From assembly GCA_022393335.1 (NCBI GenBank), contig JAJEKB010021002.1, forward strand, positions 1,092,696-1,156,695: a stretch of 64,000 bases of DNA. The letters run 5' to 3'. The notes under the pieces are model-generated. The model saw only the letters and a list, made by a program, of their open reading frames with translations. It was not told where the DNA came from and made no database searches. Position 1 is the stretch's first letter. Each line of letters starts with the position of its first letter. The DNA is from Macrotrachela quadricornifera. Lineage: Eukaryota > Rotifera > Eurotatoria > Philodinida > Philodinidae. The translations under genes and the position numbers were made by a program. Positions 2,689 through 61,274 of the stretch are shown one piece after another.

Positions 2689-3431
2689 ACGTAGGATATC
2701 TTATCACCCGATTCGAGTATTTCTTCTCCCGATTCGATTCCAAATGGATTCCAATCTCGTTATCTTGGTTTCCAAGTGTAACTTGACGAGCTCTATCGAT
2801 TCCAAGCACCTATTCCCCTCATACACCCCCCCTAACCCCCCGAAACCCAAAAAATCACTAAAAACTACCTAAAAAAAACCTAAAAAACACGCCAATTTCA
2901 GAAATGTCATTCCCGATTCGTTCCTAAGCCGATTCCAATGAAACCAAGTAGGTTTCCAAGTGTAACTCGATGAGCTCTATCGATTCCAGGGATTTTTTTT
3001 CTCACACGACCTTTCTTTACCCTCAAAATATCCCAAAAACCTGCAAAAAATGCTAAATTTCCTCGAAATACCCTTCCCGATTCGCTTCCAAGTCGATTCC
3101 AATGAAATCAAATAGGTTTCCAAGTGTAACTCGATGAGCTCTATCGATTCCAGGGGTCTGTTTTCTCACAAGACCTTTCTTTACCCTGAAAATACCCCAA
3201 AAACCTGTCAAAACGGCCAAATATCCTAGAAATACCCTTCCCGATTCGCTTCCAAGTCGATTCCAATGAAACCAAGTAGGTTTCCAAGTGTAACTCGATG
3301 AGCTCTATCGATTCCAGGGATTTGTTTTCTCACAAGACCTTTCTTTACCCTGAAAATACCCCAAAAACCTGTAAAAACGTTCAAATTTCCTCGAAATACC
3401 CTTCCCGATTCGCTTCGAAGCCGATTCCAAT
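2689..3431 (+). repeat. left terminal inverted repeat, tandem-unit array
   Basis: Four copies of an anchor reading GAGCTCTATCGATTCCA occur with final T of CTATCGAT at 2800, 2984, 3148 and 3312. Spacings are 184, 164 and 164 bp. The outermost unit has a distinctive C-rich stretch (2822-2850), mirrored in the outermost right unit. The array ends near 3431, after which the two ends diverge. Confidence 0.85.
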
Positions 3432-4357
3432 AGAATTGATGATGATTCTAGATAGATTTCAACTTGGTCTTTTGATTACACACCCCATTCATGAATTTGG
3501 TTTGTGTTTGTGCCTAAAAAGTTGCGAATTACTTTATTGCTGGTAGCCAATGATATTCACAAACGAAAGTTATTGTAATTTGCAGATTTGTATTTTATTT
3601 TCAGAAAAATAAAGAATGATTACAATACAGAGCACACTTTTTAATGGAATTTATCTCAAAAGAAATAAAACTATTAACTATATTAATAAGCGAAATTTGT
3701 ATTACAGAAGAAAATATTTTTTTCACTTTCTCAAATCTTGAGCGGAAAAATGAATATTATAAAAATTAAAGAGATGATCAATTTTCTAAAGAAAGAATTT
3801 ATGATTATAATTTCCATGTCAAAATATATTCGATATGTTGCTAATTGAATTACATTACATTTTGAATAATAAATTGTATATATAAGATTAGTTCTCTTTC
3901 GATAGGTCAGATATTCATCTAAACGGATCCTGTGGCAATGGGTTTTATCTTTGAAATGAAAAATTGTTAAAACAAAATCTGATATCATAAAGAAAAAATA
4001 AGATGTGGAAGAAAAGACGTTGCTTTTTCGATACGATCGTCTACAAGATTGTATTATGCTTTGCTTTTCATCATCTAAGTGGTGTACCTGATTAGATAGA
4101 TGAAAAGATATTATATGAAAAAATTATTTTTCTCGTCGGATGTCGTCAAATGAATTTTTTCTATATGGCGGTATTGTAATATCCATTGGTCGGCTTGAAA
4201 TATTTGTTTAATAGTGAAGAAAAAAACGTCATTCATTTATTCTCAGTTAATCACATAGATCGACAACAGCTATTTATTTAATCACAAATTCTAATACTGC
4301 TCTTGGCTGAATCAGGAAATTGGTTTTATTACAATTTAATTATATTGATATAGTCAA
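3432..4357. other. non-coding 5' region of transposon
   Basis: AT-rich sequence between the left repeat array and the transposase start. An 85-codon minus frame at 3731-3988 shows no domain and is probably chance. The transposase promoter should lie here, but no element was assigned with confidence. Confidence 0.4.
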
Positions 4358-7300
4358 ATGATGTCTGATCCGAATTCACATAAAGTAGGTAAGGATATTT
4401 GGACACTTACTAGTCTAGAAGAAATAGTTGCTGCTATTGCTTCACTTGGTGATCGTTATAAAGAACTAAATGAGGAGACATGGCGATTAAATGCTAAAAC
4501 AAAATTATCGACTTCACTTTGGGAGCAACTTATTAAAAAATTAGAACTTGATAATACTGAAAAAAGGCGCCACTCTTTGTACAATATATGGAGATCAACA
4601 GTTCATTGCGTTCCTGAACGTGTCAAAAAAGAATTAGAAAGAAGAAAGAAAAATATAATTGATGAAGATAATGATAATATCAATGCAGAAGAAGAAGTAT
4701 CTGTTCAAAAGAATAATAATGTACAATTAATGCCTGACCCATCATTACCGTTACCTGAACCGCCGAATACACGTACTCGTAAGGCAAAAACTCTAAATGA
4801 TAATATTATTGAACAGTCAACTGTCAGTGAAGTATCATTTATTTTGACTGCAGCTGAATGGAAAGCTGTAGTTAGTTGCACAAAAAAAGAATTACATAAG
4901 GGTTGGACAAAAATATTTTCCGACAAACTAACTTCATGTGGAATAACATGTGCATTACAATTTTTTAAAACACACATTAAAAAAGGAAAAAGAAAACGAC
5001 ATTGTAAATATTTTTGGTGTCGTTCTAAGTGCACTGGTGAGTATTGCACTAGATCATATTTTATTAAACTTGTAGGTAGTGTGGATTTCAACGGATCACC
5101 AACATTTCGTACACAAATCTCAGGTACAGAAAGACATGATGCTGAAATTGCAACAATGAAACGTCAACTATGTGGAGAGGAACGGTATTGTGTCGGTGAG
5201 GAGTTGTCTTATTTATTACACTTAGAAACTACATTGTGATGATCTATTTATTTTAGGAAAGCGAGCAAATGAAATTGGTCCTTTAGCAGTATTTCGTGAA
5301 CAAGTAGAAGCTGCTGATGAGAATTTGCTCGCAGCAGGGAATTACACTGAATGTAATACAATTGAAGTAATAAAAAAAGCAGCGGTCGATTATCGTAAAA
5401 AACATCAAATAGACGAAAATATTTACACAGCATGTCGCATTATTGCTTCTGCTTATGATAAAGCAGATGTCACGTCCACTAGTGTGAAAGGTGAGTGATT
5501 AATATATTAGAAGAAAATATTTTGTCTTTTTTTCTCAGGATACGTTCAAGTTTCTGGTGAAATGCCATTTCGTGCACATCTTTTTTCTGAACCACAAATT
5601 GAGTTATATGCCAATTATTGTAAAAAGGAAAAATATTCATATGTTCATGTCGATGCTACGGGTGGTGTCTTAAAACGCATTTCCGGACAAGATCAAACAT
5701 TACTTTATACAATGGTTTTCAAAGATGGAACTGATTCTATTAATACTATTCCGCTTGCACACGCATTTCTTTCAAATCATACGGTTCCTAGCATTACTTA
5801 TTTCTTAGGAAACGTAGCACAAGAAATTACCGACTTAAAAAAAAAATTAATTCGTCCTTCTTTTTTTGTAATTGATTTTTCTGCTGCTCTTATGAATTCT
5901 ATTCTTCAAGCATTCAATCAAGAAAGTATCAATACTCATTTAAATCGATGTTGGAATGTTTTAAATCGAAGTTATAACACTGTACAACTGCGAGAATTAT
6001 CATTTATACATTTATGTTGTGCTCATGTAATTAAAGCCATAGCAAGAAGCTTAAATGCTGCATGTATAGATAAAAAAATTCGACGAGGTATATTACATAT
6101 ATTTATGCTTATTTTATGTGGCAATAATCTCAATCAATTATATGATATTCTTGGCTTAGTGATTGATATATTCGGTGACCCAGACGAACAGAACGCAAGA
6201 GAAAAATTCGAAAAATTACTCTCTCTTGAATTAGATATAGATGAAGAAAGTGTTACTTTATTATCTGATCACAAGAAAACATTAGAAGAAGCGAAAAAGG
6301 AAAATGATAAATTAAAAGTTGTAGATGAATATTTTCGTTCAAGTACTGCTATTATCCATCAATCACCTTTTAATATAGAAGCTATTCGACGTTATCCTCA
6401 TCTTAAAACTCTCATTAATAACAAATCCAAGTATGATACAAATGTTAATCCATTATTTTCTCCACTTCTTATCCGTATTTTCTATCGATGGTGGGCGTAT
6501 TTACCATTATGGACAGGCGTACTATGGAATTTTGAAGAACGATATTCAAATAATCTGGAAATTAATGCATCTGTTATATATAATCCAATACGTCATTCAA
6601 ATGCAGTTATTGAGAGTTATTTTCGTACATTTAAAAATAGCATTTTAAAACAGAAAGTTGGCACTCAACCACAAAAAATAATCGAAGAACTATATCGAAG
6701 CATCCAAGTACAACTTAAAGCTCTTCAATACGAAGTAACACAAAGTTCAAAAGGAAGAAAACGAAAAATGAACCGAGATGGAGGTTGGGCTAAAAAAGGT
6801 ATTGGTAAAAAATGCCGAAATCTATATGGAAAAGCAATTGATGCATTTGCATCAAAATATAATCTTTCAAAAATGAAAAATGCTCAACCGAATAAAGTTA
6901 CAAAAGACAACAGGTATAATCTTTAAATTTAAAATACTGTAACATTATTTCTCTCTTTAGTGAAGAGGATACCGCCTCGAGCGTTTCATCATCAGATCAA
7001 TCTCCAACTCCTCTTGATGAATTAAATGATAAGATCTGTTCGAGGTAAGACAAAAATTTTTTTTTTCATACAGACGGATACTTAATTTTTTTTCCAGAGA
7101 ACCTTCTGTGTCAAGTAACAACAGTTCTCGATCATCCTCACCTAAATCTGTTATAGTGGTAAGTAACGAATATTCTATTAATGATCGATTGAATTCAGAT
7201 AAATCGACATCCGACGATCAACAAAGTAAACTTCCAGTTAAAATTGACTTTGATAACGATGACCTCAACAACAACATGTTTTCCATTCTGGACACAGTGT

Positions 7301-8590
7301 ATTCTAGTGACAATCGTATGTATTAATATCGAAGTTTTGGATTAGGAAGATAAATTTTTCTTAATCTAGAATACATGTTACCAACTACTCAACCTTCGTA
7401 TCACCCAGAGGCACTGATTGATGGTCATTTAATGCAATGGCCACGATTTGGAATAAAAGAAGTCATTTTCAGGGGTAATTAAAGAATAAAAAATTAATGT
7501 TTTGTTCGCTGTAGGTAATTTCATATAATCTTTTTTTTTAAGGTCGATCTTATACTCTCACTAATACTTGTCCTACAGATTCGGCATTATTTGCATTATA
7601 TTTTATATATAAAACTGATATTAATATTGCTGGGACATTAAATCATGCACCTAAAACATCAGCATATTCAACACTTGTTAAAACTTTTCGTACAGTTGAA
7701 AAAGAAGGTTGGGATGCTGCTCGTCTTAGCTGGTTGCATGAGCATGGTATCTTACAACATGCCGCTGAGAAAAAAAGTCTTTTTGGCTCAGCAGACAAAC
7801 AAGTATTTCATTTTCTTATGCGTGAACAACAGCATTCTTCTCAGATTGAATGTTCAAGAGTTCAATGCAAAAAAAGAAGACGTAACCGAACAAACACAGA
7901 ATTGTGTCTTTTGTGAGTATCGTTTATTCGAATTGCTTTTTTAAACAATAAAATTTTGTTGTTAGCACGTTTGAAGATTACATTCGAGATTTTAATAACG
8001 AAACTACTGATGCTTGTGATATAATGATGGTACGATCTGATGAAATAACTACAGAAGAAGCACGTGAATATAAATATCGAAGTGTTACAATGCTAACAAC
8101 TGATGGACAGCCAGACGAGTATGATTATGTCACGTTATTTTATTTTTTCTAATAATATTGAATTTTTTCTTCTTCTTTATAGGCATGCATGGGTATGCAA
8201 TGCCACTGCTCATGTGTCTGTGGCTAATTTTACACATAGTCATCCGCCGATTATCATAGTTAACATCAGACATTTACCAAAAAATAAAAAAGGATCTGAT
8301 GATCGTTCTCCTCAATTACTTGATTTAATACGCGAGATAAAAATCAATTCTATAAAGTAAATTATTTAAACGTTTATTTTTTTTTCTAACTTTTTGTAAT
8401 TTTTATTGTCAGATACAGACTGGGAGCGGTAATACATCATAGATATCAACCTGTTGAACATTTTACCGCTACTCTCCTCGGTAGTGACGGTCAACTATAT
8501 TTATACGACGATTTAAAAGGTGTAAAAAAATTGTCAACTTCAACAGACAAAATAGTCTATGCAGTTTATACTCAAATCTATACAATTTGA
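4358..8590 (+). CDS. DDE transposase fused to a USP-like cysteine peptidase
   Basis: Ten exons: 4358-5195, 5257-5490, 5539-6913, 6961-7044, 7098-7315, 7370-7474, 7543-7912, 7966-8118, 8183-8356, 8413-8590. They total 3729 nt, a 1242-residue protein, and every intron is GT-AG and 48-68 bp. Residues 1-210 are a charged N-terminal region. Residues 216-235 hold a Cys-rich, FLYWCH/WRKY-like knot (CKYFWCRSKCTGEYC). The likely catalytic acids are D396 (HVDATGG), D470 (VIDFSA) and E716 (HSNAVIESYF). A CxxH motif (CCAH, 517-520) sits between D and E, as in Mutator-like transposases. A Ser-rich linker (about 820-900) leads to a C-terminal domain with the order Cys-His-Asp of ubiquitin-specific proteases: C961 in NTCPTDSALFAL, H1200 in VEHFTATL and D1216/D1217 in LYLYDDLKG. 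The transposase should cut at the tandem-unit ends. The peptidase may deubiquitinate the transposase or a host factor (inference). All key residues appear present. Confidence 0.75.
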
Positions 8591-9552
8591 CAGCTATTGT
8601 ATTATTCAATTGTTCCTTTCTTATTTGTTTTACAACTGATATTTCTGTTAGAAAATTTTGTTGAAGAAAATGAAATAAAACATGATTGTCAAAAAAAAAC
8701 ATATATACGATAATTGATCACATATCCAAATATGATTATCTATTTATTCCAATCAATTCATCGTTCATCAATATAAAAATAAAAGAATGAAAAGAAAATT
8801 TTTTATTTGTGATATATAAACTTGAAAGATTTTTAGTCAACATTAACATAAAATGATTGATGAATAAGAGTAGTTATAAATTTTGATGCATTGATTCTAT
8901 TAGATTTATAAAAATAATTTGATAGCAAAAGAGTAATATGTATATATTTAAAAGGCTCATATTATTATTCTTCCTCACCTTCAGATATATTTGAATCAAT
9001 AAATAAAATTATTCATTGAAGAAAATAACATAGTGCCATAAGGGATAAATAAGATGACCGATTGAATAGACGTCAGCTCATAATAGGCACAAATTAGACG
9101 GATATATGTCTATGTCATTTTGATTGACTTGTAAACAATAACACTTATTTATCAGTATGTACAAAGTTGAAGCTCATCATCGAAGAAAAAAAGGATAAAT
9201 GAACAGAGGACTAAATAGAAAATCATGTAAAAGACAACTCATTCATATATGACAAATACTCGTATTATTTTTGATAAATATATATTCAAATAATAGTATG
9301 TATTCATATACATCAATGTTCTTTTTCTTTTTCATTGCAATATCATTGTTTTGCTCATAAATACATCAAAGAAGAAACATAAAAGAAAGAATAAAATCGT
9401 CTAACTTGTTGAGGTTCACTCTTTGAAAGTACCCATTATCAACAAGGTTACATTGATGAACAAATATGTAATTTAATTATCTATTGGATCCACAAATCTT
9501 TATATATACAGCCAAAAAAGCAGGATAATTTTCATTCAATAAAATAACTATC
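8591..9552. other. non-coding spacer inside transposon
   Basis: AT-rich spacer between the transposase stop and the first cargo gene. No open frame of interest, no repeat unit and no RNA gene was recognised. It must contain the transposase 3' end and the promoter of the small membrane protein gene. Confidence 0.4.
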
Positions 9553-10152
9553 ATGCATTCAATTATCTTCTTCTCTACTCTTTTCACATTCGCCATATCT
9601 GCTCATGTAAGTTAATCTCATTGATGTATATCGATTCTTATAATTCATTTCAATATTATAGATTTATAGTAATTACGAGCAGTACGTTGAATATGAAATT
9701 TCAAACAAAAACACCACTACCATTATTCCTCATAACACCACCATACCTCTTGTCATTACCACCACAAATATTATTGATAAAGCTAAAAGCGCCTCAAAAA
9801 CAATTAAAGATTATACTGAATCTTTTGCTATTCTTTTTCCTTCTGTCTTCGGTGCTATCACAGTAATTTATGCAATATTAATGTATGTAATTAAATTTTA
9901 TAAAAATAATTTTAAATTTAAAGTAAGAAATTATTTAAATTTTTTTTTTATTAATGGTAACTTCTTTTAGTGGTCTTGGGTAACAATTAAATCGCCGGCA
10001 GAATATGAACGTCGTCGTCGAAGAACAAATGGTGAATAAATAACGATCAGTTTCTATTTATGATTTTTTTTTTCCTTTTAGATGAAGTTACTTCAAATGA
10101 AAATTCGCCACGTATTGAAGAAGTATATAATTCAATAGATGCCATTGTATAA
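9553..10152 (+). CDS. small type I membrane protein (transposon cargo)
   Basis: Four exons (9553-9606, 9662-9922, 9971-10031, 10082-10152) sum to 447 nt, 148 residues; each junction is GT-AG and keeps the frame. Exon 1 is exactly a signal peptide (MHSIIFFSTLFTFAISAH). The ectodomain of about 55 residues is rich in Thr, Ile and Asn with several N-x-T sites. One transmembrane helix (about residues 74-98, FAILFPSVFGAITVIYAIL) follows, then a basic cytoplasmic tail with an Arg run (YERRRRR). The C-terminus holds EVYNSI, which fits a YxxI sorting-type motif. No family was recognised. It sits in the same orientation as the transposase and the glycoprotein gene, so it probably travels as cargo. Function unknown. 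The four consistent splice joints make a real gene likely despite the small size. Confidence 0.65.
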
Positions 10153-10603
10153 ATTTTCTTTTTTTTTCTTATGTTTATATCTTATTTGTTTGTCTTATTT
10201 ATTTAATAAATTACAAAATATTTCTTTTAATAGATGAAATATATTGACTTGTTTATTTGATGTTCTTATATCAAATCGATGTATCTTTATCAACTTGATG
10301 ATAAAGAAAATATCAAAAAGATATATATCTTGTTTGTGATGATCAAATGAATTTTTAATCGTGTGTCGAAGAGAACACATTCGCGAGATATCTTTTTATA
10401 TATTATAACAAACTTTCACTCTTTTTTTCTTCCAACCATTTCTCATCGTTTTTTTTTGATAATTTTTTCTTGTATACAGACACATATATATATATAATAG
10501 GCAATTTGAAGAAAACATTCTTTTGCCCGATCTGTTATTCACATAATATTTCGTAACACAAGTTTCAATCATCGATATAAATATTCATTTCCATTGAGTT
10601 AAG
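10153..10603. other. non-coding spacer inside transposon
   Basis: AT-rich spacer. A TATAAATA at 10576-10583 lies only about 20 bp before the next ATG, probably too close to serve as its TATA box. No other feature was seen. Confidence 0.35.
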
Positions 10604-12109
10604 ATGCTTGATGTTTCTAAATCAGTGTTAGTGTATTCCATGATTAACTGCATTACAGTTGTTACACTTGTCTCCATAAGAGAATTGTCAACTGATGATA
10701 TCATTGTTAATATCAATAAAGGTTATGCTCTTCAACGTATTGGTACTTATTCAACGAATATGGTAGAAGAAGTTGTGCATACATTTTTATCACTCGATAA
10801 TTTTTGTGCCGTACAAACAACGAACGCTGTGTGTAAATATACTTCATCATCGCCAGCGACAAACATTATTGAACTTGCCACTATAATAACATCTGATCAT
10901 ATAAGACACACATCATTTAGTTATGACAGAGATAATGCGTCACAATTGATTGCAAAAGATTTAAACCGTGTTCTTGTACAACATAAGTCAAATGAATTTC
11001 TTCGAGATACTCAATCAAATATTCATTTTATTAATGACAAATTTTATTATAGCAATAATGCCGCCAAATTATCACCAGCAACAACTTCTATTAATACCGT
11101 TGATAATAATAATAATATACTACAGTTTCGTCCAACATCAGTAGATATGATTATGAAACAAATTAACAACAACAAAATAAGTTTTGAATATTTGTCTCTT
11201 GCTGATTTAAAATTGTTTTTAACAATTGTATTTTCCAATCTTGATAATTCGTACAAGATTAATGATGTTGAAGATTCTTTAAATGCTTTTTCTCAAATAG
11301 TCATTGGACAATCTATCTATGCTCTACGTTATTGTGGATTAAATAGACAACATTCATTGTCTTCAAAACCATGTCTAGTAATTTCAACATTATTTATACG
11401 AACTCCATCAAACAGTCCATCAGTTTATTCAATTTATCGTTTGTTTCCGTTACCAGTAGTTACTAATGGTAATAAATATATTTATTCTGATCTTCCAAAA
11501 ATCATAGGAATTAATTCTGTTGAACAAACACTAATTATGTGGAACAATCTATTTAATAACAATAAATGCACATTCTCACCTATCGTGTTATGTCATATCA
11601 CACCTATTTCAATATCATTATTGTCATCGTCATGTCTATCTCAATTATTTGACGATTACCAATCTGTTTCAAATATGTGTCAAGTAAGTCGAACACAAAA
11701 TATTGAAAAAGCCGTATTACGCATTGATGATGGACTATGGCTATTTTATAATACGAATCGTACATTTTACTGTCAAGTTTATTCGCATCTATTTCAATTG
11801 ACTGAAACTATGTCAATTGATGCACCAGCCATTGTACGTATACCGTGTCATAAGACAATGATATGTCCGGATTTTCAATTACCTATCACGACGTGTAAAA
11901 CAAATCGAATTATCGTCACACCTGGTTTTGAGTTCAATATTCTAAATTTACCTCAATTTGTCGTACCAATTAAAAACATGACACAAACGCTTATGTCACT
12001 TCATCATATACAGCTAGAAAAATCAATCAAAGAAATGATATCGACTTTCTCATTAAAACAATCAAATTTTCAAGATACACTCCGTGAATTTGCATTATAT
12101 ATTTTATGA
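10604..12109 (+). CDS. secreted or envelope-like glycoprotein (transposon cargo), cut at membrane anchor
   Basis: A single-exon frame of 501 residues. It starts with a hydrophobic signal (about residues 6-24) and has a long ectodomain with cysteines and N-glycosylation sites (NRT, NMT). Its C-terminal third is Cys-spaced and then heptad-like just before residue 501. This layout recalls the stem region of F-type envelope proteins of insect retroelements and baculoviruses, but the resemblance is by eye and weak. The frame ends with TGA at the start of a hydrophobic stretch. Sequence beyond the TGA stays open to about 12223 and would encode a membrane span and basic tail. As it stands the product would be soluble or loosely attached; whether TGA is a lesion, is read through, or is natural is unknown. 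No GT donor precedes the stop, so an intron is not an obvious escape. Could instead be an unrelated surface protein. Confidence 0.5.
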   Translation: MLDVSKSVLVYSMINCITVVTLVSIRELSTDDIIVNINKGYALQRIGTYSTNMVEEVVHTFLSLDNFCAVQTTNAVCKYTSSSPATNIIELATIITSDHIRHTSFSYDRDNASQLIAKDLNRVLVQHKSNEFLRDTQSNIHFINDKFYYSNNAAKLSPATTSINTVDNNNNILQFRPTSVDMIMKQINNNKISFEYLSLADLKLFLTIVFSNLDNSYKINDVEDSLNAFSQIVIGQSIYALRYCGLNRQHSLSSKPCLVISTLFIRTPSNSPSVYSIYRLFPLPVVTNGNKYIYSDLPKIIGINSVEQTLIMWNNLFNNNKCTFSPIVLCHITPISISLLSSSCLSQLFDDYQSVSNMCQVSRTQNIEKAVLRIDDGLWLFYNTNRTFYCQVYSHLFQLTETMSIDAPAIVRIPCHKTMICPDFQLPITTCKTNRIIVTPGFEFNILNLPQFVVPIKNMTQTLMSLHHIQLEKSIKEMISTFSLKQSNFQDTLREFALYIL

Positions 12110-12397
12110 GGTGTGTGTTGCATCTTCGTTATGATCGTCTCGTATATGTTTAAATTCATCAAATATAAAGTATTGAAACCAATAAACAGTCTTGATTCTC
12201 AAATTCAAGACATTATTAACTTTTGATTTTCATGATTCTTTCTAACTATTGCTATTCATACTAATACAAATTGTTTGTTATATATAATAAAATTCCTCTA
12301 ATCTTCTAATCAAATTAAATAAAAAGAAAATTGTAAAACAAACTATTGTGAGGATAAAAGTACGAAGCCATCAAACAAAGAAAGTGTCTTCTTAGGT
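12110..12397. other. 3' region of glycoprotein gene, then non-coding
   Basis: The first 110 bases continue the glycoprotein frame past its TGA as a hydrophobic then basic stretch, closing at a second TGA near 12223. The rest is AT-rich with no frame. It ends at the inner boundary of the right repeat array. Confidence 0.45.
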
Positions 12398-13511
12398 CGA
12401 TAGAGCTCATCGAGTTACACTTGAAAACTTACTTGGTTTCATTGGAATCGACTTGGAAGCGAATCGGGAAGGGTATTTCTAGGAAATTTAGCATTTTTTG
12501 AAGGTTTTTGGGGTATTTTGAGGGTAAAGAAAGGTCTTGTGATAAAACAAATCCCTGGAATCGATAGAGCTCATCGAGTTACACTTGGAAACCTACTTGG
12601 TTTCATTGGAATCGACTTGGAAGCGAATCGGGAAGGGTATTTCGAGGAAATTTAGCACTTTTTGCAGGTTTTTGGGATATTTTGAGGGTAAAGAAAGGTC
12701 TTGTGATAAAACAAATCCCTGGAATCGATAGAGCTCATCGAGTTACACTTGGAAACCTACTTGGTTTCACTGGAATCGTCTTGGAAGCGAATCGGGAAGG
12801 GTATTTCTAGCAAATTTAGCCTTTTTTGCAGGTTTTTGAGGTATTGTGAGGGTAAGGAAGGGTCTTGTGATGAAACAGACCCCTGGAATCGATAGAGCTC
12901 ATCGAGTTACACTCGGAAACCTACTTGATTTCATTGGAATCGACTTGGAAGCGAATCGGGAAGGGTATTTCTAGCAAATTTAGCCTTTTTTGCAGGTTTT
13001 TGGGGTATCTTGAGGGTAAAGAAAGGTCTTGTGAGAAAACAAATCCCTGGAATCGATAGAGCTCATCGAGTTACACTTGGAAACCTATTTGATTTCATTG
13101 GAATCGACTTGGAAGCGGATCGGGAAGGGTATTTCTAGGATATTTGGCTGTTTTTACAGGTTTTTGGGGTATTTTGAGGGTAAAAAAAGGTCTGGTGAGA
13201 ATAAAAATCCCTGGAATCGATAGAGCTCATCGAGTTACACTTGGAAACCTACTTGGTTTCATTGGAATCGGCTTAGGAACGAATTGGGAATGACATTTCT
13301 GAAATTGGCGTGTTTTTTAGGTTTTTTTTAGGTAGTTTTTAGTGATTTTTTGGGTTTCGGGGGGTTAGGGGGGGTGTATGAGGGGAATAGGTGCTTGGAA
13401 TCGATAGAGCTCGTCAAGTTACACTTGGAAACCAAGATAACGAGATTGGAATCCATTTGGAATCGAATCGGGAGAAGAAATACTCGAATCGGGTGATAAG
13501 ATATCCTACGT
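12398..13511 (-). repeat. right terminal inverted repeat, seven tandem units
   Basis: The anchor TCGATAGAGCTC recurs at 12398, 12561, 12725, 12889, 13053, 13217 and 13401. Spacings are 163, 164, 164, 164, 164 and 184 bp. The order mirrors the left array, with the distinctive G-rich outermost unit (13355-13385). Three more units than the left end, so the arms are unequal. Confidence 0.85.
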
Positions 13512-13519
13512 GATTTTTT
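13512..13519. repeat. right 8-bp target-site duplication GATTTTTT
   Basis: Exact copy of 2681-2688, directly outside the right terminus CCTACGT. One copy belonged to the original receptor gene, where it encodes part of KKN in the interrupted EGF module. Confidence 0.85.
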
Positions 13520-16326
13520 TTATTATTAAAATATTTAATACAATGACCATGATGACAAATTTTATCTGAACATATTTCATTTGTATTCATAATAGGTGGA
13601 ATATTAAGCTGAAGAGAAATACGTTCGACAGGTAAAAATGGATAATTAAGTGGAAGAAATAAACTTCCACGATATTTAAATAAAATTTTTTCATATATAT
13701 CAATGTGAATAAAATAATTTTTTGTTAAATTTTTTGGTCGAGTCGAATAAAGTAAATAAATATTATATTTAACTTTACAATGTTCAACATAAATATAAGT
13801 TAATTGTTGATATGAATGAATTATTCTTTCATTTGTATCATCCATAAGTGAAATTATTATTGAAAATAATGTTTTTCGTGAATCAGAATATGTTTGAAAT
13901 TTTAATGTTAAACTAACACGATCATTTTGATATTGACATTGTAAACCATAATAACTAGGTGGACAAAGACAAACTATTCGACTATTATTATTATTTAACC
14001 AATTTTGAAAAGGTAAACCACGATGACAATATTGATCAGATTTATCAATTATTTCAACTGACTTAATATGTTTCATTTCATCTTTCGGAATTGATTCTTT
14101 TAATTTATTGACAGAAAAATGTACAATTGTCATTTTCTCCAAATCAACAGGACGTCGACAAAGAAATTCTTGAACATCAGTGCGACTTGATTTATAATCT
14201 GAATCACAAACAAAATTCAAAGGACTATTTGGCTTTAGACTTCGATTACATATTGGTTCATAATCTTCATACATACATTGCTGACGGCCATGACATCGAC
14301 CAAAAGACGATATGCACGGTTCAAATGTATTGTTCTTACAATAAAAATTGAATATATATGGTTGATGAATATTTGATCGACATAATTTTGGTTCATCAGT
14401 AGCACCAACACAATCAATATAACCATCATTTGCTTTTGAAATAGGTAAACACATTAGTTTATATGTATTAGGTGAAATACAAATATGATGATAAGATGGA
14501 CATCTTAATAATGGATATAAATCACAATCAACTTCATCAGCTCCATTAAAACAATTCCAAAATCCATCACATCGTGTATATGTATTATTACATTGCCAAT
14601 ATTCACATTCACTTTCATCAGTTTCATTTCGACCATCAATATTAATTGAAAATAATTCTATAAAACCATCACAAATTGTTGTAAATGATATATGTTTTTT
14701 CTTATAATGTTCAATTGTATATTCATCATCACATACACCAGGTTCTTCTGAAAAACAATCACATTTACCATCGCCGACCATTTTTAAAGGTAAACATTGA
14801 CTTCCTTCTGTACATCTGAAAAACATTTTTGATCCAATTGTAGGACAACTACCATTGATTGGTGAACAATGTTCATCATCTTTATAATCACAATCTTTTT
14901 TACCATCACATAGACGAGATTTTGAAATACATTTTGAAGAATTTATGCATTGATACATTGTTGTATAATTACAAATATTTGAATTATTATATTTAATTAT
15001 ATTACAATGAGAAAAATAACGATCGAATAATAAAATATACCTAGTTAATCTATTATATCTTGATTCGACTGAAAATTCAAATGGAAAATCCTGTAAACGA
15101 CGACACGTTATATTATTAAATTTAAGTAAATTTCTATTAGGATAGAATCCATCACAAAGATTTTCATTGTAACAAGCATAATCAGGAGCATACGAATTCA
15201 TCGAAGGTAGAAGAGTCATTTTCTTATAAGCTATATACATATGACCAAAGGCAAGTGGAGCATCGGGTATGACAAGTAGATCTGGACATGTTTCATTTAT
15301 TATTTGTTTGCATATATTTCTATCAAAGCATAAATTCACACATGCTGAATCAATATAATTTGTAATAGAATAAATGCATCGAAATGCTAACCAACAAATA
15401 TTTGATAATGATTTTGGTGTATCAGAATCAATTGATTTCATGAGTAAAATATTACGTGTTAATCGACATGAACTAGTTATTATTGCACCAATGGATCCAA
15501 AACGTGAAGGACATAAAATATCTTCACTACCGATTGTCGGTTCACTAGCCCAATTTTCTTCCACTGATTTTTGATAAAGATCAATTTCATCTGATTGATC
15601 GAGACATTCGAAAGTATTTTTATCTCCATCACGAAAGAATATTTTCGATATACATTGTCCACTATCACATTGACGTTCATTTTCATCACATTCTTGAGTT
15701 TCAATTTGCCAACAATTAACTTCATCTATTGCATTATTTAAACAATCAATATGTCCATCACATACTTCACTCCAATCAAGACATATGGATGGAGAACCAC
15801 GATTACATTCAAAATGAATATAACATGTCAAATTAGTAGGTTCATAATATTGTTGATAAAAATCATAAATAATATCATTTAATGATAAATAATCATCATT
15901 TTTATCAATATCTAATTCATATTGACATAATGATCCAAATTTTGGTAATGTACAATTGTAAAATAATTCTGTTTCCATTGAAGATAATTTTTGATTTAAA
16001 TAGAATTGATATCGTTCAATAACATCCATTGGTGCTGACCAAGAATATAATTGTTCACTTGTTAGATTTTCTTTTGAAAGTTGAGAAAAAGTAAATATTT
16101 GATTGTGATTTGGTTCGACAATTTTCCATATTGTTGGCCATTCAGTTAAACAATAAGAAATAATCTCATGGAAATTATTTTCTTTTTTAATATCAGCAAA
16201 TATATAAAGACAATTATATTGAAAATCAATATTGGTTATTTCATCTGTTAGATGAAGATTTATTTGAATTGAATTTGTTGTCGAATATAATAAAAATAAG
16301 TAGAAGAAAATCTTCATGAAATGCAT
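13512..16326 (-). pseudogene. 5' half of transposon-split LDLR-A/EGF/7TM receptor gene
   Basis: Reads from ATG at 16326 with a signal peptide (MKIFFYLFLLYSTTNS). A series of LDLR class A modules follows, recognisable by CDGxxDC...DE...C patterns such as VCDGHIDCLNNAIDEVNC and LCDGKKDCDYKDDEHC. Next come a first EGF module (CLCPPSYYGLQC), a beta-rich stretch, and the opening cysteines of a second EGF module (CHHGHC) that is cut by the transposon. An open frame continues past 13512 into the transposon for about 30 codons to 13414, so a truncated secreted protein with a foreign tail could be translated. The native continuation is at 744-2680. LDLR-A modules bind calcium and ligands outside the cell. 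Family-level function in rotifers is unknown to me. No introns are needed. Confidence 0.85.
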
Positions 16327-27149: not shown

Positions 27150-27549
27150 NNNNNNNNNNNNNNNNNNNNNNNNNNNNNNNNNNNNNNNNNNNNNNNNNNN
27201 NNNNNNNNNNNNNNNNNNNNNNNNNNNNNNNNNNNNNNNNNNNNNNNNNNNNNNNNNNNNNNNNNNNNNNNNNNNNNNNNNNNNNNNNNNNNNNNNNNNN
27301 NNNNNNNNNNNNNNNNNNNNNNNNNNNNNNNNNNNNNNNNNNNNNNNNNNNNNNNNNNNNNNNNNNNNNNNNNNNNNNNNNNNNNNNNNNNNNNNNNNNN
27401 NNNNNNNNNNNNNNNNNNNNNNNNNNNNNNNNNNNNNNNNNNNNNNNNNNNNNNNNNNNNNNNNNNNNNNNNNNNNNNNNNNNNNNNNNNNNNNNNNNNN
27501 NNNNNNNNNNNNNNNNNNNNNNNNNNNNNNNNNNNNNNNNNNNNNNNNN
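27150..27549. other. assembly gap, 400 N
   Basis: Exactly 400 N in a row, so the length is probably a scaffolding estimate or default. It begins inside a dispersed repeat, a likely cause of the break. Confidence 0.95.
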
Positions 27550-28514
27550 TTTTTCTTTCATATAAAAAATATGACTTTTTTAACGTTTTTTAAGATTTTT
27601 CAAATAGTTTTTTGAATTTTTTATCACGAAAAAATGATTCAGAAAATTTTGTCATATATACAGTTTTGTAGAGCTCGACGAGCTCTATCGAACCATGTAA
27701 AAATATCCAAGAAAAACACTTGACTTCAGTTTTGAATTACTGGCACCTTACTTTTCCACTGCAGAAAAAGCATAAAATTTCTTCAAGTTTCTAAAGTTCA
27801 ATATTAAAAAGTTTTCATAACCCTTACTATTTAGTATCAATAAACCCCATTTTTTACGGGCTTTCATTTGGTATAGAATTCATTATTTACTTTATGTGAA
27901 ATTATAGTGGTACCCCCTATAAAAGTATTTTTTCCAACCCTGTAGAATCACTTGTATGAATAATTTACTAGATAATATTCATAGAATGAATAGAATAGAT
28001 TCAATTGTAACAAGTGTTAATTGCTTTTGCTGGTTAGATTTTATTTGACTAAATTGAATAATCAAACATTATATGGTGCGACATAGATTTTATCAAAAGT
28101 TGTGTTACTACCATTAAATAAAAATCTAAACATTTCGAGATATTTTATATTTTATTCTATCAAATATTGATGATAGTTTGCCATGATTATTTATATTAAA
28201 TTGAATCTTTGAACAACATAAGTTTATCAAGACAGATGTGAAGCTAAACCTTGTTTTGTATATTCATTAAAGTTGTAGACAAAAACGAAGTTATAGTTCG
28301 CAAATATTATATTGAAAATTCTCTAAATCCTTTTATTAATGAAATATGGAAACAAACATAGACATCACGTGAAAAATATACATAATTGTTTCAAGACGAT
28401 TGTTAACTTCATACTCATCTAATATTATTAATTATTTTATAGAAGAAAAAATCAATATAATGTCACAGGAATCATTTTTGACATACTTTAGATTTGATTA
28501 AATATAATATTGAT
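27550..28514. other. intergenic, AT-rich
   Basis: No gene was recognised. It lies downstream of the oxidoreductase pseudogene on the minus strand. Confidence 0.4.
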
Positions 28515-31242: not shown

Positions 31243-31978
31243 TTACAAAAACAGTTCGAGTAATTTCTCACGATAGTCAGTAACGGCGTTGTATTGATGA
31301 TAGACATTTTCGTGGCCACAATTACAATCGTCTCGATCGATTGAGCCGGAAAAAAGAACACCTTAACTGGAAAAATGGTGCGATCTTTTTGAAGTATGAA
31401 TCTTCCATTAATTCTTTTTTCAGTTAGTCCCGTTGTGCTTCGTCTATCGACTCACAATGCGTTACTATCAAACAGGAATTGTTTGATGCTTCAGGACCAA
31501 AATAATCGATCAATAATTGAAGTGATGCAATATCTTCTTGATTAATACCAGCTACTAGCGAAACGCAAAAACATATTGCGTGAAACTTTGTAATATCCAT
31601 ATTAATACAAAATCCAATAGTTTTTAAGATCGCTTCATTATCACGAATATCAAGTTCATTATTATTATGTTCAAACAGTCCGGGCGTGTCAATAATGTTG
31701 AGTACAATATCATCATTTTCCATATGAAATGCCTGAAAATGAGGATCTCTTGTGCCTGATTTAAGCGTCATCTCATCAGGTATACTCGTAGGATTAACTA
31801 GCAATGATTTAATGGTGGATTTTCCTGCACAAGTTCGTCCAATGAGCAAAATATTCTTGTGTTCAACTTTTTTCATTGGATACTTGCCATATTTTTTAAA
31901 GTCTCTTTCGAGTTCCTTCTTAATTTTATCACCCATTTGTGGATCTTTGATATCAGCATATCTGCTACGAATTGAATC
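31243..31978 (-). pseudogene. AIG1/GIMAP-like GTPase pseudogene
   Basis: The exon begins after an intron-type acceptor (TATTATCAG, 31979-31987) and reads as an AIG1-family G domain. It has a G1 P-loop GRTCAGKST, a G3 DTPGLFE, and THCES in the G4 position. The frame then meets TAA right after AQRD (31424-31426). Family-like sequence continues in the same frame (LKKELMEDSYFKKIAPFF) until a single-base frameshift. In the shifted frame it goes on as GHENVYHQYNAVTDYREKLLELF to a GTAAGT donor at 31243. So the G domain is preserved but the C-terminal helical part is broken by one stop and one frameshift. Bdelloids and other animals carry many GIMAP-like GTPases, often linked with immunity. Upstream and downstream exons were not found. 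Confidence 0.7.
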
Positions 31979-34900
31979 CTGATAATACTAGAAATAATAT
32001 AAATTATGCAAACGTATGGTAATTGACAGTAACCGCGCGAGCGGGAGAGTCCAGAGGAGTGTACATCCCCGAAATAATTAGAAATTTTTCGTTTTTATTC
32101 AACGACGAGAGCGAATTGAGGGTGAAATTATAAAATGTTTATATGTAGCTGTAACTAATGAAAACACTTTTAAGAGAGATATTACCGCAAAATTAAGTCG
32201 AGAAGTTTTGGGGACGTTCTGTATTTAAAATGTGATCCATTACAGTGCATCATTATAACATGTACCTCAATCGTTTCTATTCTCTTTTCTTTCTTTGCTC
32301 TTGATTAAACCTCGCTTCTCTTTCCACTATTGCCCTGATTTTCATGTGTGTATATACACACGTGTGTCTTATAAAAAAAAAAAGAAAGAAGAAAATAGGT
32401 AATCCATAATAGTTAACGTTTATTGCTCTCTACTAGCGGGAATCGATAACAGGATGTAATACAATATTCAATCAGAAAAAGTTTTTTTTTCTATCATTAT
32501 GATCAGTATGCTAGTAAATGTTCATAATCTTCATCTATTGAAAACTGATTATTTTATGGTTAATTGAATACTTTCAATATGAAGAATAACCAGTTTATTA
32601 TTCGAAATAGACTCACAATAATTATTGATGGTGGTAGATCAGTCATCCCAAATGCTTGTTTTCTTTGTTGAATCTATATAGGTTTTCTTTCTAAATACAA
32701 TTGATCAGTATGAATTGTGACAAATAGTATGCGACCTGAAAAAACAATTAAGATAGAGAAAAGAGGTTGTTTCACGTCTTACTTTTAAATCTTGCTGATT
32801 GACACTTGGTGAAACGAATGAATGATTGTGAATATGGACACTCATATTTATACTGCTTATACTGTGGAAAAAATGTTCTGCTTTCACCATAAGATTGTTT
32901 ATTCCTTTTAAATTTTGGTAATTCCTACTGACTCAAGGTGGGAGAAAAGTGACATCAGATGTTTCTTACCAACGATTCAATAACACAGAAAAGAAAATTG
33001 GTAATTTCTTTTCAGTAACAAGATTAACTCGGCTTCATTTCATAGAATAATTTTAATTTCGAATCCGTAGAACTTTCATTTTAAATCAGAAGAAAAGAAA
33101 AAGTCGATTCACTCATTCTTCCAACTTGATTCAGGGGTGATACTTGATCTTTACTATACTCTGAAAAAGTAAAGTAAAGTAATATAACCAAATTCATTTT
33201 AATATTGATTTATCAGCCCATTATCATGCATTGATAGAGTTACAACTAGAAATGGCACTTTAATTTTACTTAACCAGGAGATAAATGAGTTAAAATTTAC
33301 TTTTGTAAAATAAATAGCCAAATCTATTTTGAATTTGATGCCATCATATAATTATTGATTCTGCTGACTGAATATAGAAAATAAACTAGTATAGATTGCA
33401 CATACTCTTGGGTCCTTTATTACTGTATACCGGAGGTATCATAAATCGTCAAATATTATATATTGTGGTACTCTTGGAGCCCCAAATAATTTTTATTGAT
33501 CAAAATGATCATTCAAGAAAAAAAAATTCCTTATTAGCGTCCACAGATGTCACTTAGTGACGCTAGCTATGTTGTCTCTTTAATTCTTTGATGTTTCTTT
33601 TCTTCCTTTGAACTCTGGTTATTCATTGATTATTTTTTTTTCTTGGACATATAGTCCCTCTTGTTCGTTTCATATTCTCTCTTTTGTTTTTCTTGATTCT
33701 GATCTTTCTTTGTTATTGATTTTTTTCTTTTGTTTATTTTATTTTTTTACCAAAATAAAACAGTTCATCTCATCATCTGAACATCATTCTAGTCATTATT
33801 TATATATCACAAAATATATCTTAGGTAGGACCTATCATTTCTTTATGTGAACTACTAGTACAGGCATCATTTGTATATTTTTTCCCGTTATGGCCTACGT
33901 GTCTTTCATGTAGGATATAGTCTATCACATTTCATCGGCATTGAGTGCCTCACAGTATGATGCATGAAAATGATCGAAAAATTTGCTCAGCATTGTGTAT
34001 CAAAACAACAATTCTTTATCGTTTGAATGAACGATCAACGTAAGAAATGACAAAGTGCTTCATCCAGTTGAGTCAACTGATATTTCGTTTGTTTTCAGAA
34101 TATGAGGAGGAACAATAATAATTATTTGACAGACATTGTTCATCAACTTTCACAGACCCGTTAGAAAAGTGAGAGAGAATTGACTCCTTTCAGTCTTTAT
34201 CACGTTGAGATCTATAACGCTAGTTTACTCTAACAATGAATTGCACCGATCAAAACGTTTCGTCCAATGACATTTACGAGAAATTACATTCGTATTTTTG
34301 TCAATGTCTCGACGATATTAAATAGTCCGGGCAAGTGAGGCATATCAGAGTTTGATCGGAGTTTTAAGATTTCTCACATTTTTCAGTGGTCGAATATCAT
34401 TGAATCCGGATAATTTCAATGGAATCTCGTCAGACAGATACCGAAAACACAGTATCAGGATTCCAATGGTCGGATTCGATCGAAATTTAGAATCATTTCG
34501 ACATGTTCCAGTAAACAGATATGTCTGATCGAATTCTAAAACTGAGAATTCGTCAGACTCTATGAGATCCTGCGAAATAAATCGGCTTTTTCGGTAGGAT
34601 TCGGCAGTCAGATTATTTGACCAAGATATCCATGTCTCTGAATGGCTTTTGCTTGGTTGGAATAGGCCAGTTTCTTCATGGCGCGGTGAGTTTTTTGCCG
34701 TGGAAGTTCAGCAACCATTCTGGGGATAGACTCTACTATGTTTTCGATGTATTCCGACTGGAATTCGGTTGCTAAGGCATAAAAGAGCCTGCTGAAACGA
34801 TATCCAAATACAACAGAATCAAGCAACTTTTTGGCAGTTTCAGCACTAGGAGTGTTCGATCCAGATTTCTAGAAACATTAGCTTTCCGACAGTTTTCGCT

Positions 34901-38738: not shown

Positions 38739-39926
38739 CTACTTACTTTTCTCTTTATTATTATTTATTTGTTGATCATCTTCACATTCTTCTAAATCAA
38801 TTTCAACTAATACTGGTGGATGAAGTATTGGATTATTTTCAATTCTATCTTTAATTTGAAATACTGAAAATGGTAATATTAATACTTCTTTTTCATCTTG
38901 TACTGTTGATAGATGTTCAATATCAATAGCAGTTTGATTTTGTTTAATTGTATATTTTAATAAAACAGATATTTGTTCGAAATCCTGATGATCTAATGTT
39001 TGTTGTAAAATATTTTCTTGATTATTTCCAGCAAATATTTGAGCAACTGAACGATTTTTAGATGTTGATGCAAATGAACGATTTAATATATGATTACCAA
39101 TAGTATAATGTTTTAAATCATTTCTTGTCAATAATAATCCTCGATAAGTAATACCTTTATATTTATATTTCTGTATATCTGGATGATTAATTAATAAAGT
39201 AACAATATGTACTAAACAATTAATTAAATGATATTTAGTTGGTGAAGATGAATAAGATGATGTATCAAAATAATCTAATATATATAAAGCTAAATGTTTA
39301 TTAAGAACACGATGAAAATTATTAGTTAATGTATAAGCTTTAATAAAATATTTTAAATAATTTTGTTCTTGAATAGCTTGTTTAAAAAAGCTTTCTAATT
39401 TATTTGTTTCATTTTTGGAAAATTGTTCTTGTTTAATTAAATAATCATTCAAATAATATTCAATTATTTCAATTAATAATTTTGTTATTAAATGATGTTG
39501 ATTATCATAAGTTTTATATAAATCAATTTCTTCACGAAATTGTTTACGTTTTTCTATCAAATTCTTTGCAGTTAATGAACATTCAATATAATCATAATCT
39601 TGTATTTCTTCATGAGAATGAAATAAATTGGAATTTTTCAGAAATAATTTTTTTATTTCATTCATTTTAAATTCATTATTAGATGTTAATTCATATGAAA
39701 TATTTTCAAATGATTTTAATGTACGATTTGTTAATAATAATTGAATTGATTCACTGTATCCATAAATACTAGCACAATGTAATGCTGTCATACCATATGG
39801 ACCCATTCGAGTAATCGTTTTAATATTATCGTACAATTTAAAATACTTTTCGATTTTATTATTTTCATTAATGTCAGATAAAATCGTGTTTAATGGAATT
39901 GTCTCTTCACTAACAGTTTCTGTCAT
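38739..39926 (-). CDS. ADP-ribosyltransferase with N-terminal ankyrin-like segment
   Basis: 395 residues, single exon, ATG at 39926. Residues about 40-70 contain one ankyrin-like repeat (GMTALHCASIYGYSESIQLLL). The middle is helical and charged. The C-terminal third is an R-S-E class mono-ADP-ribosyltransferase fold: R262 (TYRG), the STS strand (SFASTSK, 284-290), and the ARTT-loop ExE motif E345-K-E347 (DEKEVLILP). These residues bind NAD and transfer ADP-ribose, with ExE favouring arginine acceptors. No signal peptide, so the enzyme should be cytosolic. The triad looks intact. The last codons lie against a GTAAGT sequence, so a further 3' exon is conceivable. Bdelloids carry many such genes, often with repeats at the N-terminus; target unknown. 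Confidence 0.75.
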   Translation of the reverse strand: MTETVSEETIPLNTILSDINENNKIEKYFKLYDNIKTITRMGPYGMTALHCASIYGYSESIQLLLTNRTLKSFENISYELTSNNEFKMNEIKKLFLKNSNLFHSHEEIQDYDYIECSLTAKNLIEKRKQFREEIDLYKTYDNQHHLITKLLIEIIEYYLNDYLIKQEQFSKNETNKLESFFKQAIQEQNYLKYFIKAYTLTNNFHRVLNKHLALYILDYFDTSSYSSSPTKYHLINCLVHIVTLLINHPDIQKYKYKGITYRGLLLTRNDLKHYTIGNHILNRSFASTSKNRSVAQIFAGNNQENILQQTLDHQDFEQISVLLKYTIKQNQTAIDIEHLSTVQDEKEVLILPFSVFQIKDRIENNPILHPPVLVEIDLEECEDDQQINNNKEKSK

Positions 39927-53333: not shown

Positions 53334-53956
53334 ACGAGGGAACATATTCAACTGTCAAATCGCTTTCCGCTTGGTTCCGTTGCCATTCGATTGGTCTTGG
53401 TGAGTAGTGAAAGAGTCTATTTTGGTTTGGTTGTCTGGCTTTCTGTTATTGACTTATGGGCATTTTACTGGATTTTTGACCTATGGGCATGGAATTTCAT
53501 GAGAACCTGAATGATCGAATTTCGAGCTGAAATTTTGTCCATAGACAGCTCTCATAGTCATTAGAAAATTGCCAAAGTTTGATCCTGAACGAATGCATCG
53601 TTATCGAGATACTCAGATGTTAAAAAAACGTCTCTTTTCGACAGTGTTTCGAATAGGGATATTTTCGATATAAGCTAATATCTCTGAAAGGGTACGTTTG
53701 TCCTGGCTCAAACTTTGGCAATTTTCTAATGACTATGAGAGCTGTCTATGGACAAAATTTCAGCTCGAAATTCGATCATTCAGGTTCTCATGAAATTCCA
53801 TGCCCATAGGTCAAAAATCCAGTAAAATGCCCATAAGTCAATAACAGAAAGCCAGACAACCAAACCAAAATAGACTCTTTCACTACTCACCAAGACCAAT
53901 CGAATGGCAACGGAACCAAGCGGAAAGCGATTTGACAGTTGGATATGTTCCCTCGT
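53334..53956. repeat. near-perfect 248-bp inverted repeat (palindrome)
   Basis: Arms 53334-53581 and 53710-53956 are inverted copies with very few differences, separated by 128 bp. Their translations give the same peptide from both strands (frames at 53304-53510 plus and 53780-54019 minus), so these frames are not genes. No clear target duplication. It could be a young foldback element or an assembly or replication fold-back product. Confidence 0.75.
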
Positions 53957-54111
53957 CAGTTCTACTTTTCTCATGTTACTGTTTTTTGAATTCAATGTTT
54001 GACTATCACTTCTTTGCAATCGATTAGTTTCTTTATATTTTATTTTTTAGTATAACCAGACTATTGTATTTTCTTTTATTACCGTGTTCAATTTTCATAA
54101 CTTCAGCCCAT

Positions 54112-57357: not shown

Positions 57358-57507
57358 TAAGTATTTCGAAGAAATGAATAAAAAAAATCATAACGATTTT
57401 TTATATTTTAATATCTGGTCAAAGTGCCATTGTAATCATCGAGTCGATTTGTGTTCGACGAAACTTAAAATTAATGAATCAAATTTTTCAAAAAATCAAT
57501 CTATTTA

Positions 57508-60730: not shown

Positions 60731-61274
60731 TTTTTTGTCTAGTGCAATCTATTTCAACTTCTACTCCAGCTATAGTCCGAGTATTTCAAAAATGAGATGT
60801 ACAATTCCTGAGAATTTTTATTGATTGTAGTAAAATTTGGATGAGAAGAATTTCACCTTCACCTTCACAATTGAATAAGTCCAAAATGAATATTTCACAA
60901 AATCTCACTGTTTTTTCAAAAATTCTCTTAACACCAATACAGTTTATTTACGAATGGCAGACTACCAGGTATTACTTTTAATTATGCTTCTTTCATAAGG
61001 ATCGCCTAATTTGATCACAAGAAAATCATAAATGACGTCTTTTTTTTTTATAAAATATCAAATTACTATTAGATAAAGATTAAAAATATTGTTATAAACA
61101 CGTATCAAAAATAGTGAGAAATGATTTTTCTATTTATTTATAGAACATGTCATAATATAGGTCAAAATTTTCTGTCAACTTTTCTCTATTGATAGAGATA
61201 TAAAAGAGCTTTGTTTTATTTTCTATTCACACAACATTAATACAATTCTTGTTGAAATACATACACAAATAATA
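60731..61274. other. 5' flank of the pentapeptide gene
   Basis: AT-rich. TATAAAAG at 61199-61206 lies about 70 bp before the ATG and is a plausible TATA box for the pentapeptide-repeat gene. Confidence 0.45.

Follow-up and report, generated by a model that had tools for sequence, protein, structure and literature searches.

A 64,000-nucleotide stretch of the genome of the bdelloid rotifer Macrotrachela quadricornifera (GenBank assembly GCA_022393335.1, contig JAJEKB010021002.1, positions 1,092,696–1,156,695 of the forward strand), referred to here as the window, contains a transposon of 10,823 bp at positions 2689–13511. The transposase gene of the element is followed by genes for a small membrane protein and for an envelope-like protein resembling viral fusion (F) glycoproteins. 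Related sequences were searched for in the 450-Mb assembly of 5,695 contigs, in which the window is C4457:1092696–1156695; other copies are designated by the same type of handle.

Structure and genes of the element

The 20-base terminus ACGTAGGATATCTTATCACC is located at 2689–2708 on the plus strand and at 13492–13511 on the minus strand. These are its two matches in the window, compared to a mean of 0.00 in 100 shuffled sequences. The arms of the element (2689–3480 and 12720–13511, 792 nucleotides) are 91% complementary. Long inverted repeats built of internal tandem units, such as those of the element, are a hallmark of Foldback-type transposons. Inverted termini, an 8-bp duplication, tandem-unit repeats and three plus-strand genes had been described in a first-pass annotation made from the sequence alone, and all of them were found again, which confirms that the locus is a structured transposon with three genes. 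The features of the element are the following.

2681–2688, no strand: left target-site duplication GATTTTTT, 8 bp, identical to 13512–13519
2689–3480, plus strand: left terminal inverted repeat, in which a 164-bp unit is repeated in tandem 3.4 times (2874–3431), identical to the right end over the outer 226 nucleotides
4358–8590, plus strand: transposase gene, 1242 amino acids, 10 exons without an internal stop (4358–5195, 5257–5490, 5539–6913, 6961–7044, 7098–7315, 7370–7474, 7543–7912, 7966–8118, 8183–8356, 8413–8590); 15 bdelloid homologues
7370–8590, plus strand: C-terminal part of the transposase, with TCPxD..LF.LYF and HFTATLI motifs conserved in the alignment of homologues
9553–10152, plus strand: small one-pass membrane protein, 148 amino acids, four exons (9553–9606, 9662–9922, 9971–10031, 10082–10152)
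10604–12109, plus strand: envelope-like gene (class I fusion glycoprotein type), single exon of 501 codons followed by a stop
12110–12226, plus strand: continuation of the same frame past the stop, 38 codons, which is the anchor and tail in full-length relatives and is untranslated in the window copy
12397–13511, minus strand: right terminal inverted repeat, in which the 164-bp unit is repeated in tandem 5.5 times (12397–13290)
13512–13519, no strand: right target-site duplication GATTTTTT, 8 bp

The element interrupts a long receptor gene of the host, the flanking open reading frames of which (744–2680 and 13520–16326, minus strand) match the Pfam families LDLa, EGF and seven-transmembrane (7tm_1). 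When the element and one copy of the 8-bp duplication are removed, the host frame on the minus strand runs through the junction without a stop for 1,584 codons; therefore, the element lies within a host coding exon. Besides the repeat units of its ends, the element contains no long direct repeats.

The nine introns of the transposase gene are 47–68 nucleotides long and all have GT-AG borders. The exon joins of the transposase and small genes were read from the sequence and are backed by homologous proteins rather than transcripts. All 15 transposase homologues are from bdelloids, with Adineta, Rotaria and Didymodactylos among the organism-named ones. The MULE transposase domain PF10551 matches three of the 15 at E ≤ 1 (best 0.0091), with homologue P0051 scoring 16.5 bits where the cut-off is 27.6, and was not found in the Pfam scan of the window transposase. 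The blocks HIDATGG, IDFSAALMN, CCCHVIHA and NAVIESYFRT are kept in the alignment of homologues, and we set them beside the D..D..C-x-x-H..E pattern of MULE transposases, which we take to be catalytic. The C-terminal part of the protein reads to us as cysteine-peptidase-like, which is unproven. The first-pass annotation had called the transposase peptidase-fused; a Cys..His pattern is indeed kept in the relatives, but neither the transposase nor its scanned relatives match a Pfam peptidase family, and the fusion is not established. The predicted model of the transposase is unreliable, with a mean predicted local distance difference test score of 37.2.

The 148-residue protein has a hydrophobic N-terminus, which we read as a probable signal peptide, two N-glycosylation motifs, one transmembrane segment and a basic tail; its Pfam scan gave no informative match. 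Two transposase gene models of Rotaria sordida continue into a relative of this protein, which is 38% identical to it over 53 residues (E 1e-9, single comparison). The full-length relatives of the envelope-like protein have approximately 540 residues and contain hydrophobic N- and C-terminal segments, corresponding to a signal peptide and a membrane anchor; the open reading frame in the window stops just before the anchor. Of the two secretory proteins proposed at first, both have hydrophobic N-termini and the smaller one spans the membrane once, but the envelope-like protein encoded in the window is anchorless.

Copies of the element and linkage of its genes

The left repeat has at least 49 matches in the genome (best 40 of 91 candidates scored). 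The surveys of copies cover repeat matches starting no later than position 40 and leave out L001–L008, which are shorter cuts of the same places. Five copies (the window, C4465, C2967, C1274 and C4388) contain the transposase, small and envelope genes in one order and on one strand. The envelope frame is open to 540 codons in C4465 and C2967, and ends at 501 codons in C1274, as it does in the window. In C4388, it is open but continues to 668 codons, into the repeat. The small gene is open in the window; a stop interrupts it in C4388, and C1274 lacks 3 of its bases. The window copy, with open transposase and small genes and a truncated envelope gene, could move itself but would probably depend on other copies to supply an envelope protein with an anchor.

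Other copies are deletion derivatives. The transposase gene is deleted from C4615, in which the small gene and a broken envelope gene remain, and C4559 retains a broken envelope gene and 49 codons of the transposase. C4419, C1711, C2996 and C3228 share nearly one deletion junction and contain the envelope from approximately residue 203 onwards, in pieces in the case of C3228. Both ends were examined in 10 copies, and six of these, among them the window copy and the deletion derivatives C1711 and C2996, are flanked by duplications of 8 or 9 bp, within the 8–10-bp range of Foldback-type transposons; that of C4388 lies within a simple repeat. Since deletion derivatives are flanked by duplications, non-autonomous copies have moved, presumably with the transposase of other copies.

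Some copies have additional features. That of C4388 is 13.2 kb long, with approximately 3.5 kb of extra sequence between the left repeat and the transposase gene that may be a nested insertion. C3228 contains, next to the usual envelope pieces, a second envelope relative with about 30% identity (L017:2578-3910), and is nested or a hybrid. Deletion derivatives of two families break the envelope gene near the same codon (approximately 198–208) in C4041 (two), C3088, C898, C2649, C4514, C4170, C4472 and C4156, and a breakpoint in nearly this place is also seen in C4419, C1711, C2996 and C3228.

The linkage of the genes extends beyond close copies. The envelope protein has at least 88 matches in the genome (best 86 of 183 candidates scored), which group into 69 loci, and the transposase core has 59 matches (all 66 candidates scored) in 43 loci. 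Repeats are located within 12 kb at all 11 loci with an envelope identity of at least 80%. At 26 of the 69 envelope loci, repeats or the transposase core are at most 12 kb away, at three of them (C4522, C4341 and C4937) on the opposite strand. Four further loci adjoin the N-terminus of the transposase, and four more (C4433, C4469, C1543 and C4528) have the terminus only, which gives a total of 34 of 69. Conversely, an envelope locus lies within 12 kb of 19 of the 43 transposase loci. The same gene order, with the small gene in between, is found in two divergent families: C3883 (envelope 47% identical, transposase 31–69% by piece), which has the same terminus, and C2127 (41% and 29–63%), which runs off its contig. 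The exons of the small gene are recognisable by eye in both, SPAEYERRR of the window corresponding to SPSEYQRRR and SFQEYQRR. When up to one mismatch is allowed, the 12-base terminus ACGTAGGATATC flanks nine divergent envelope loci (C4649, C4268, C4637, C4433, C4499, C4469, C1543, C4528 and C4156), where the chance expectation is approximately 0.02 per locus by our estimate assuming equal bases.

The 28 distinct envelope loci that were read with 1.5-kb flanks are the best-scoring of the 69; the other 41 are mostly weaker. Termini or repeat arrays are present at 22 of the 28, and these or a same-strand transposase at 23. C3834, C4463, C4338 and C3730 have neither, and C4937 has only a weak opposite-strand transposase-like match. 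In C4649 and C4268, open envelope frames stand beside only the first 85–95 residues of the transposase. A near-complete transposase core (at least 398 of 454 residues) occurs at 11 loci, seven of which have an envelope gene, while two are on contigs that end early (C1727 and C2151). The remaining C745 and C744, similar contigs that may represent one locus, have the core and lack an envelope gene; C745 has a repeat-like stretch at about the expected end of the element and no envelope match in the 2 kb read. Therefore, the envelope gene is not obligatory. The distant envelope relatives of C4522, C4341 and C4937 (31–37% identical) lie approximately 4–9 kb from weak opposite-strand matches to the transposase core, and may belong to a third lineage in which the genes are ordered differently.

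The recurrence of one arrangement in five copies and two other families argues against an arrival of the envelope gene by accident, through a chimeric assembly or as part of a retroelement nested in the transposon. Such an origin is conceivable in a bdelloid, the TelKA long terminal repeat (LTR) retrotransposons of which carry a paramyxovirus-type env gene; however, the available text on TelKA describes an env that matches a Pfam fusion family by profile (PMC5408684), which the envelope of the element does not. Long direct repeats are also limited to the repeat units of the ends. We rejected this explanation, which is refuted for practical purposes. Random capture of a host gene was likewise rejected, as no organism-named homologue is from outside the bdelloids; the names, all bdelloid, are carried by five of 44 rows of the sequence search with the envelope protein, 12 of 55 rows of the profile search and all 15 transposase homologues, the other rows being without an organism name.

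The central proposal of the first-pass annotation was that the element belongs to an undescribed family of large transposons, perhaps virus-like in some traits. It finds support in the position of the two extra genes in five copies, in the gene order kept in two divergent families and in the class I fusion fold match described below. The annotation regarded the extra genes as cargo. They do lie between the transposase gene and the right repeat in five copies; however, the term understates their behaviour as a module. It also held that copies with the same ends and no cargo, or cargo genes that are mainly ordinary host genes, would speak against the proposal. The former exist in part, as a geneless copy with the same right end (C4565) and as the related envelope-less C745 and C744. 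The latter was not observed among the 28 best-scoring loci read.

Fold and selective constraint of the envelope-like protein

The predicted structure of a full-length homologue of the envelope protein was compared with known folds using Foldseek. It matches an insect RNA-virus glycoprotein with an E of 2e-13, a baculovirus F protein with 8e-12 and F of respiratory syncytial virus with 4e-6. Among its 33 matches in BFVD at E ≤ 0.001, 24 are named glycoprotein, fusion/F or spike and nine are uncharacterised or unnamed; among 37 such matches in the PDB, 36 bear titles of paramyxovirus or pneumovirus F, and the remaining title is 'viral class I fusion proteins'. In a further PDB comparison, all listed entries are F-type proteins apart from an alphavirus domain, and the lack of other folds in it carries no weight. 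The model thus has the fold of an F ectodomain. In sequence, the family has 26 invariant columns, 12 of which are cysteines, over 20 members down to 29% identity. The same 20 members gave no fusion family at E ≤ 1 among the 25 of 33 Pfam families listed, the best PDB match by sequence has an E of 0.81, and a scan of viral contigs with the envelope alignment yielded 53 pattern matches, none of which was confirmed. Judged by the modelled fold, the envelope protein appears to be of the viral class I fusion (F) type and to stand outside any named Pfam F family.

The envelope gene is under constraint in most stop-free pairs of copies. The ratio of nonsynonymous to synonymous changes (omega) was estimated by simple counting, pairs are not independent, and copies had to cover the gene to within 5 nucleotides, which left out the C4388 transposase, split over two loci. 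Five copies (the window, C1274, C2967, C4388 and C4465) are free of stops in the 501 codons compared, and omega is 0.28–0.45 in seven of their 10 pairs, namely those with at least five synonymous changes. In the second family, for which three of eight loci were left out because their matches were too short (L044, L049 and L057), omega is 0.28–0.35 in all three stop-free pairs and 0.57–0.92 in pairs with stops. Fisher tests were applied to six chosen stop-free pairs. Omega is 0.28 for window–C4465 (p 0.005) and C2967–C4465 (p 0.008), 0.33 for C3883–C4268 and C4649–C4268 (p 0.006 each, counts rounded) and 0.28 for C3883–C4649 (p 0.03), so that five of the six have an omega of 0.28–0.33 with p 0.005–0.03; the sixth, window–C4388, has 0.42 (p 0.11). 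A pair with stops has 0.92 (p 0.70). Omega of the transposase is 0.03–0.27 in the core exon and 0.17–0.42 over three exons.

These values argue against the envelope being passive cargo, that is, a viral glycoprotein gene captured by an ancestral copy and hitchhiking without function. Broken and truncated copies are common, the closest stop-free pairs have more nonsynonymous than synonymous changes, and a family with a transposase and no envelope persists, all of which speak for cargo. However, the low omega in seven of 10 stop-free pairs of one family and three of three of the other, the invariant columns with their cysteines, and the small gene kept alongside make this explanation improbable.

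A protective function is the chief rival to a role in transfer. Instead of carrying the element between hosts, the glycoprotein may be kept because it shields either the host or the element itself from related viruses and elements, for instance through superinfection exclusion, in which it would occupy a receptor. A benefit to the host would favour copies that have the envelope but no transposase, and the envelopes of the transposase-deleted C4649 and C4268 are both open and constrained. The 501-codon anchorless form of the window and C1274 could be secreted, and the viral-type F fold also speaks for protection. On the other hand, many envelope copies are broken, and the linkage to the transposase across families with envelopes 41–47% identical is more typical of an element gene than a host gene. 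We regard protection as rather unlikely, if less so than passive carriage.

Possible role of the glycoprotein and comparison with known systems

The element is very probably a transposon of the Foldback type that encodes an F glycoprotein of viral type. The data are best read as a DNA transposon of the MULE/Foldback type that has a gene for a viral-type fusogen among its core genes. Several observations weigh against this reading. The transposase appears only weakly MULE-like, and its first three exons contain a stop in C1274 and a one-base deletion in C4465, with neither in C2967. A duplication is missing from four of the 10 copies in which both ends were examined. C4565 is a 1.5-kb copy with ends only (the right end compared letter by letter), and C745 and C744 combine a near-complete transposase core with the lack of an envelope gene. 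No transposase or termini were detected at 35 of the 69 envelope loci, four of which had their 1.5-kb flanks read. The TM-scores of the fold matches are weak, and a conserved furin site was not found, RX[KR]R being present in three of 39 envelope relatives. Omega reaches 1.40 for window–C2967 and 1.39 for C1274–C2967 (one synonymous and five nonsynonymous changes), and window–C1274 has no synonymous and four nonsynonymous changes in the envelope.

We propose that the window element is a recent insertion of a Mutator/Foldback-type cut-and-paste transposon. The transposase would recognise the repeat-filled inverted termini and insert the element with 8–9-bp duplications; that it moves the element is shown by the ends, the duplications and the reconstructed empty site. 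The hydrophobic N-termini and membrane segments suggest that the small protein and the glycoprotein enter the secretory pathway. The type I glycoprotein most likely fuses membranes, judging by its fold, conservation and constraint, and the pair may help DNA of the element to cross from cell to cell or from one individual to another, with vesicles as one possible carrier. In this way, a DNA transposon could maintain itself in a host without sex. Since no capsid or polymerase gene was recognised in the element, its packaging would depend on vesicles or on a helper. The proteins of the element gave no Pfam match above the cut-off to capsid, DNA polymerase B or retroviral-type integrase families (one rve_3 match, at E 0.18, is below it) and none to reverse transcriptase, and the termini are inverted, unlike those of LTR elements.

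The explanation as a whole, comprising a recent insertion, a three-gene module, a glycoprotein that fuses membranes and a pair that aids the passage of DNA, is in our view slightly favoured. For the role of the glycoprotein in the transfer of element DNA, taken by itself from fold, conservation and constraint, the balance is close to even. More tentatively, the element may represent a superfamily of infectious-like cut-and-paste transposons without capsid or polymerase, which spread between asexual animals by means of their own fusogen and its partner membrane protein, with element DNA carried in fusogen-bearing vesicles. Derivatives that have lost the transposase and retained the fusogen would then be satellites of such elements. 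Alternatively, the element could be one integrated part of an enveloped rotifer DNA virus with a MULE-like integrase, the capsid and replication genes of which reside on other segments or in a helper. This would account for the viral F-type fold, the secretory pair and horizontal persistence; however, no capsid or polymerase family was recognised in the element, and deletion derivatives with duplications resemble ordinary non-autonomous transposons, which makes a viral origin of this kind highly improbable.

The remainder of the window contains further mobile-element remnants and genes. Two pieces of a mariner/Tc-type transposase (Pfam) are located at 56672–58491 on the minus strand, with inverted repeats at 55642–55811 and 57161–57330 (170 nucleotides, 95%), and a hAT dimerisation domain at 45741–46544, minus strand (Pfam E 3.9e-10), belongs to another DNA transposon remnant. 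A 281-nucleotide inverted repeat at 53331–53611 and 53679–53959, 95% complementary with a 67-nucleotide loop, corresponds to a long hairpin. Open reading frames with Pfam matches include an AIG1-type GTPase (31427–31987), an ADP-ribosyltransferase with an ankyrin match (38742–39926), a caspase-type protein (54447–55016) and a pentapeptide-repeat protein (61161–62213). A run of N at approximately 27150–27560 is perhaps an assembly gap.

The FB/NOF elements of Drosophila combine Foldback-type repeats with a long transposase gene, as the element does, a likeness by description only; to our knowledge, they have no envelope-like gene. The Tm1 Mutator/Foldback elements of root-knot nematodes, as described in the available text, have composite inverted repeats of tandem units and duplications of 8–10 bp, mostly 9, comparable to the 8–9 bp of the element, and include transposase-bearing and MITE-like (miniature inverted-repeat) members (PMC3169594). 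However, they are approximately 1–2.6 kb long, their termini differ from those of the element, and the same text mentions one that encodes a 496-residue protein and no membrane or envelope gene (PMC3169594).

Envelope-like genes are known from mobile elements of other types. According to the available text, nematode Maverick/Polinton elements are, like the element, animal DNA transposons with a putative viral-type fusogen and have been linked to horizontal transfer; they encode integrase, DNA polymerase and capsid (PMC10680173), none of which was recognised in the element, a small inverted-repeat transposon. The TelKA retrotransposons also are bdelloid mobile elements with a paramyxovirus-type class I fusion glycoprotein. 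By contrast, they are LTR retroelements with pol, and their env is described, in the text available, as matching pfam00523 and having a furin-like site and a fusion peptide (PMC5408684), whereas the envelope of the element matches no Pfam family and lacks a conserved furin site. Viral genes are likewise joined to a DNA transposon in Teratorn, a fusion of piggyBac with a herpesvirus; by the description available, it is 180 kb long and largely virus-derived, compared to 10.8 kb and one viral-type gene in the element. Our search for a DNA transposon with an envelope gene, in bdelloids or elsewhere, was confined to the open literature (subscription papers and preprints being outside its scope) and, judged by titles and the openings of abstracts, yielded nothing comparable apart from Teratorn. 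The main text of a 2021 survey of bdelloid transposons, as available, does not mention Mutator, MULE, Foldback or envelope, and mentions env for LTR elements (PMC7943196). Horizontal transfer has been suggested for DNA transposons, and LTR elements with env are among the candidates named for moving between hosts on their own (PMC7943196).

It is an open question how transposons persist in anciently asexual animals such as the bdelloids, and horizontal transfer becomes testable with a DNA transposon that brings a viral-type fusogen of its own. The element may also be a vehicle for foreign DNA in bdelloid genomes. The acquisition of fusogens would extend beyond retroelements, the large virus-like Mavericks and Teratorn, and, if the proposed role is true, the element would represent a route of horizontal transfer between that of a naked transposon and that of a virus.

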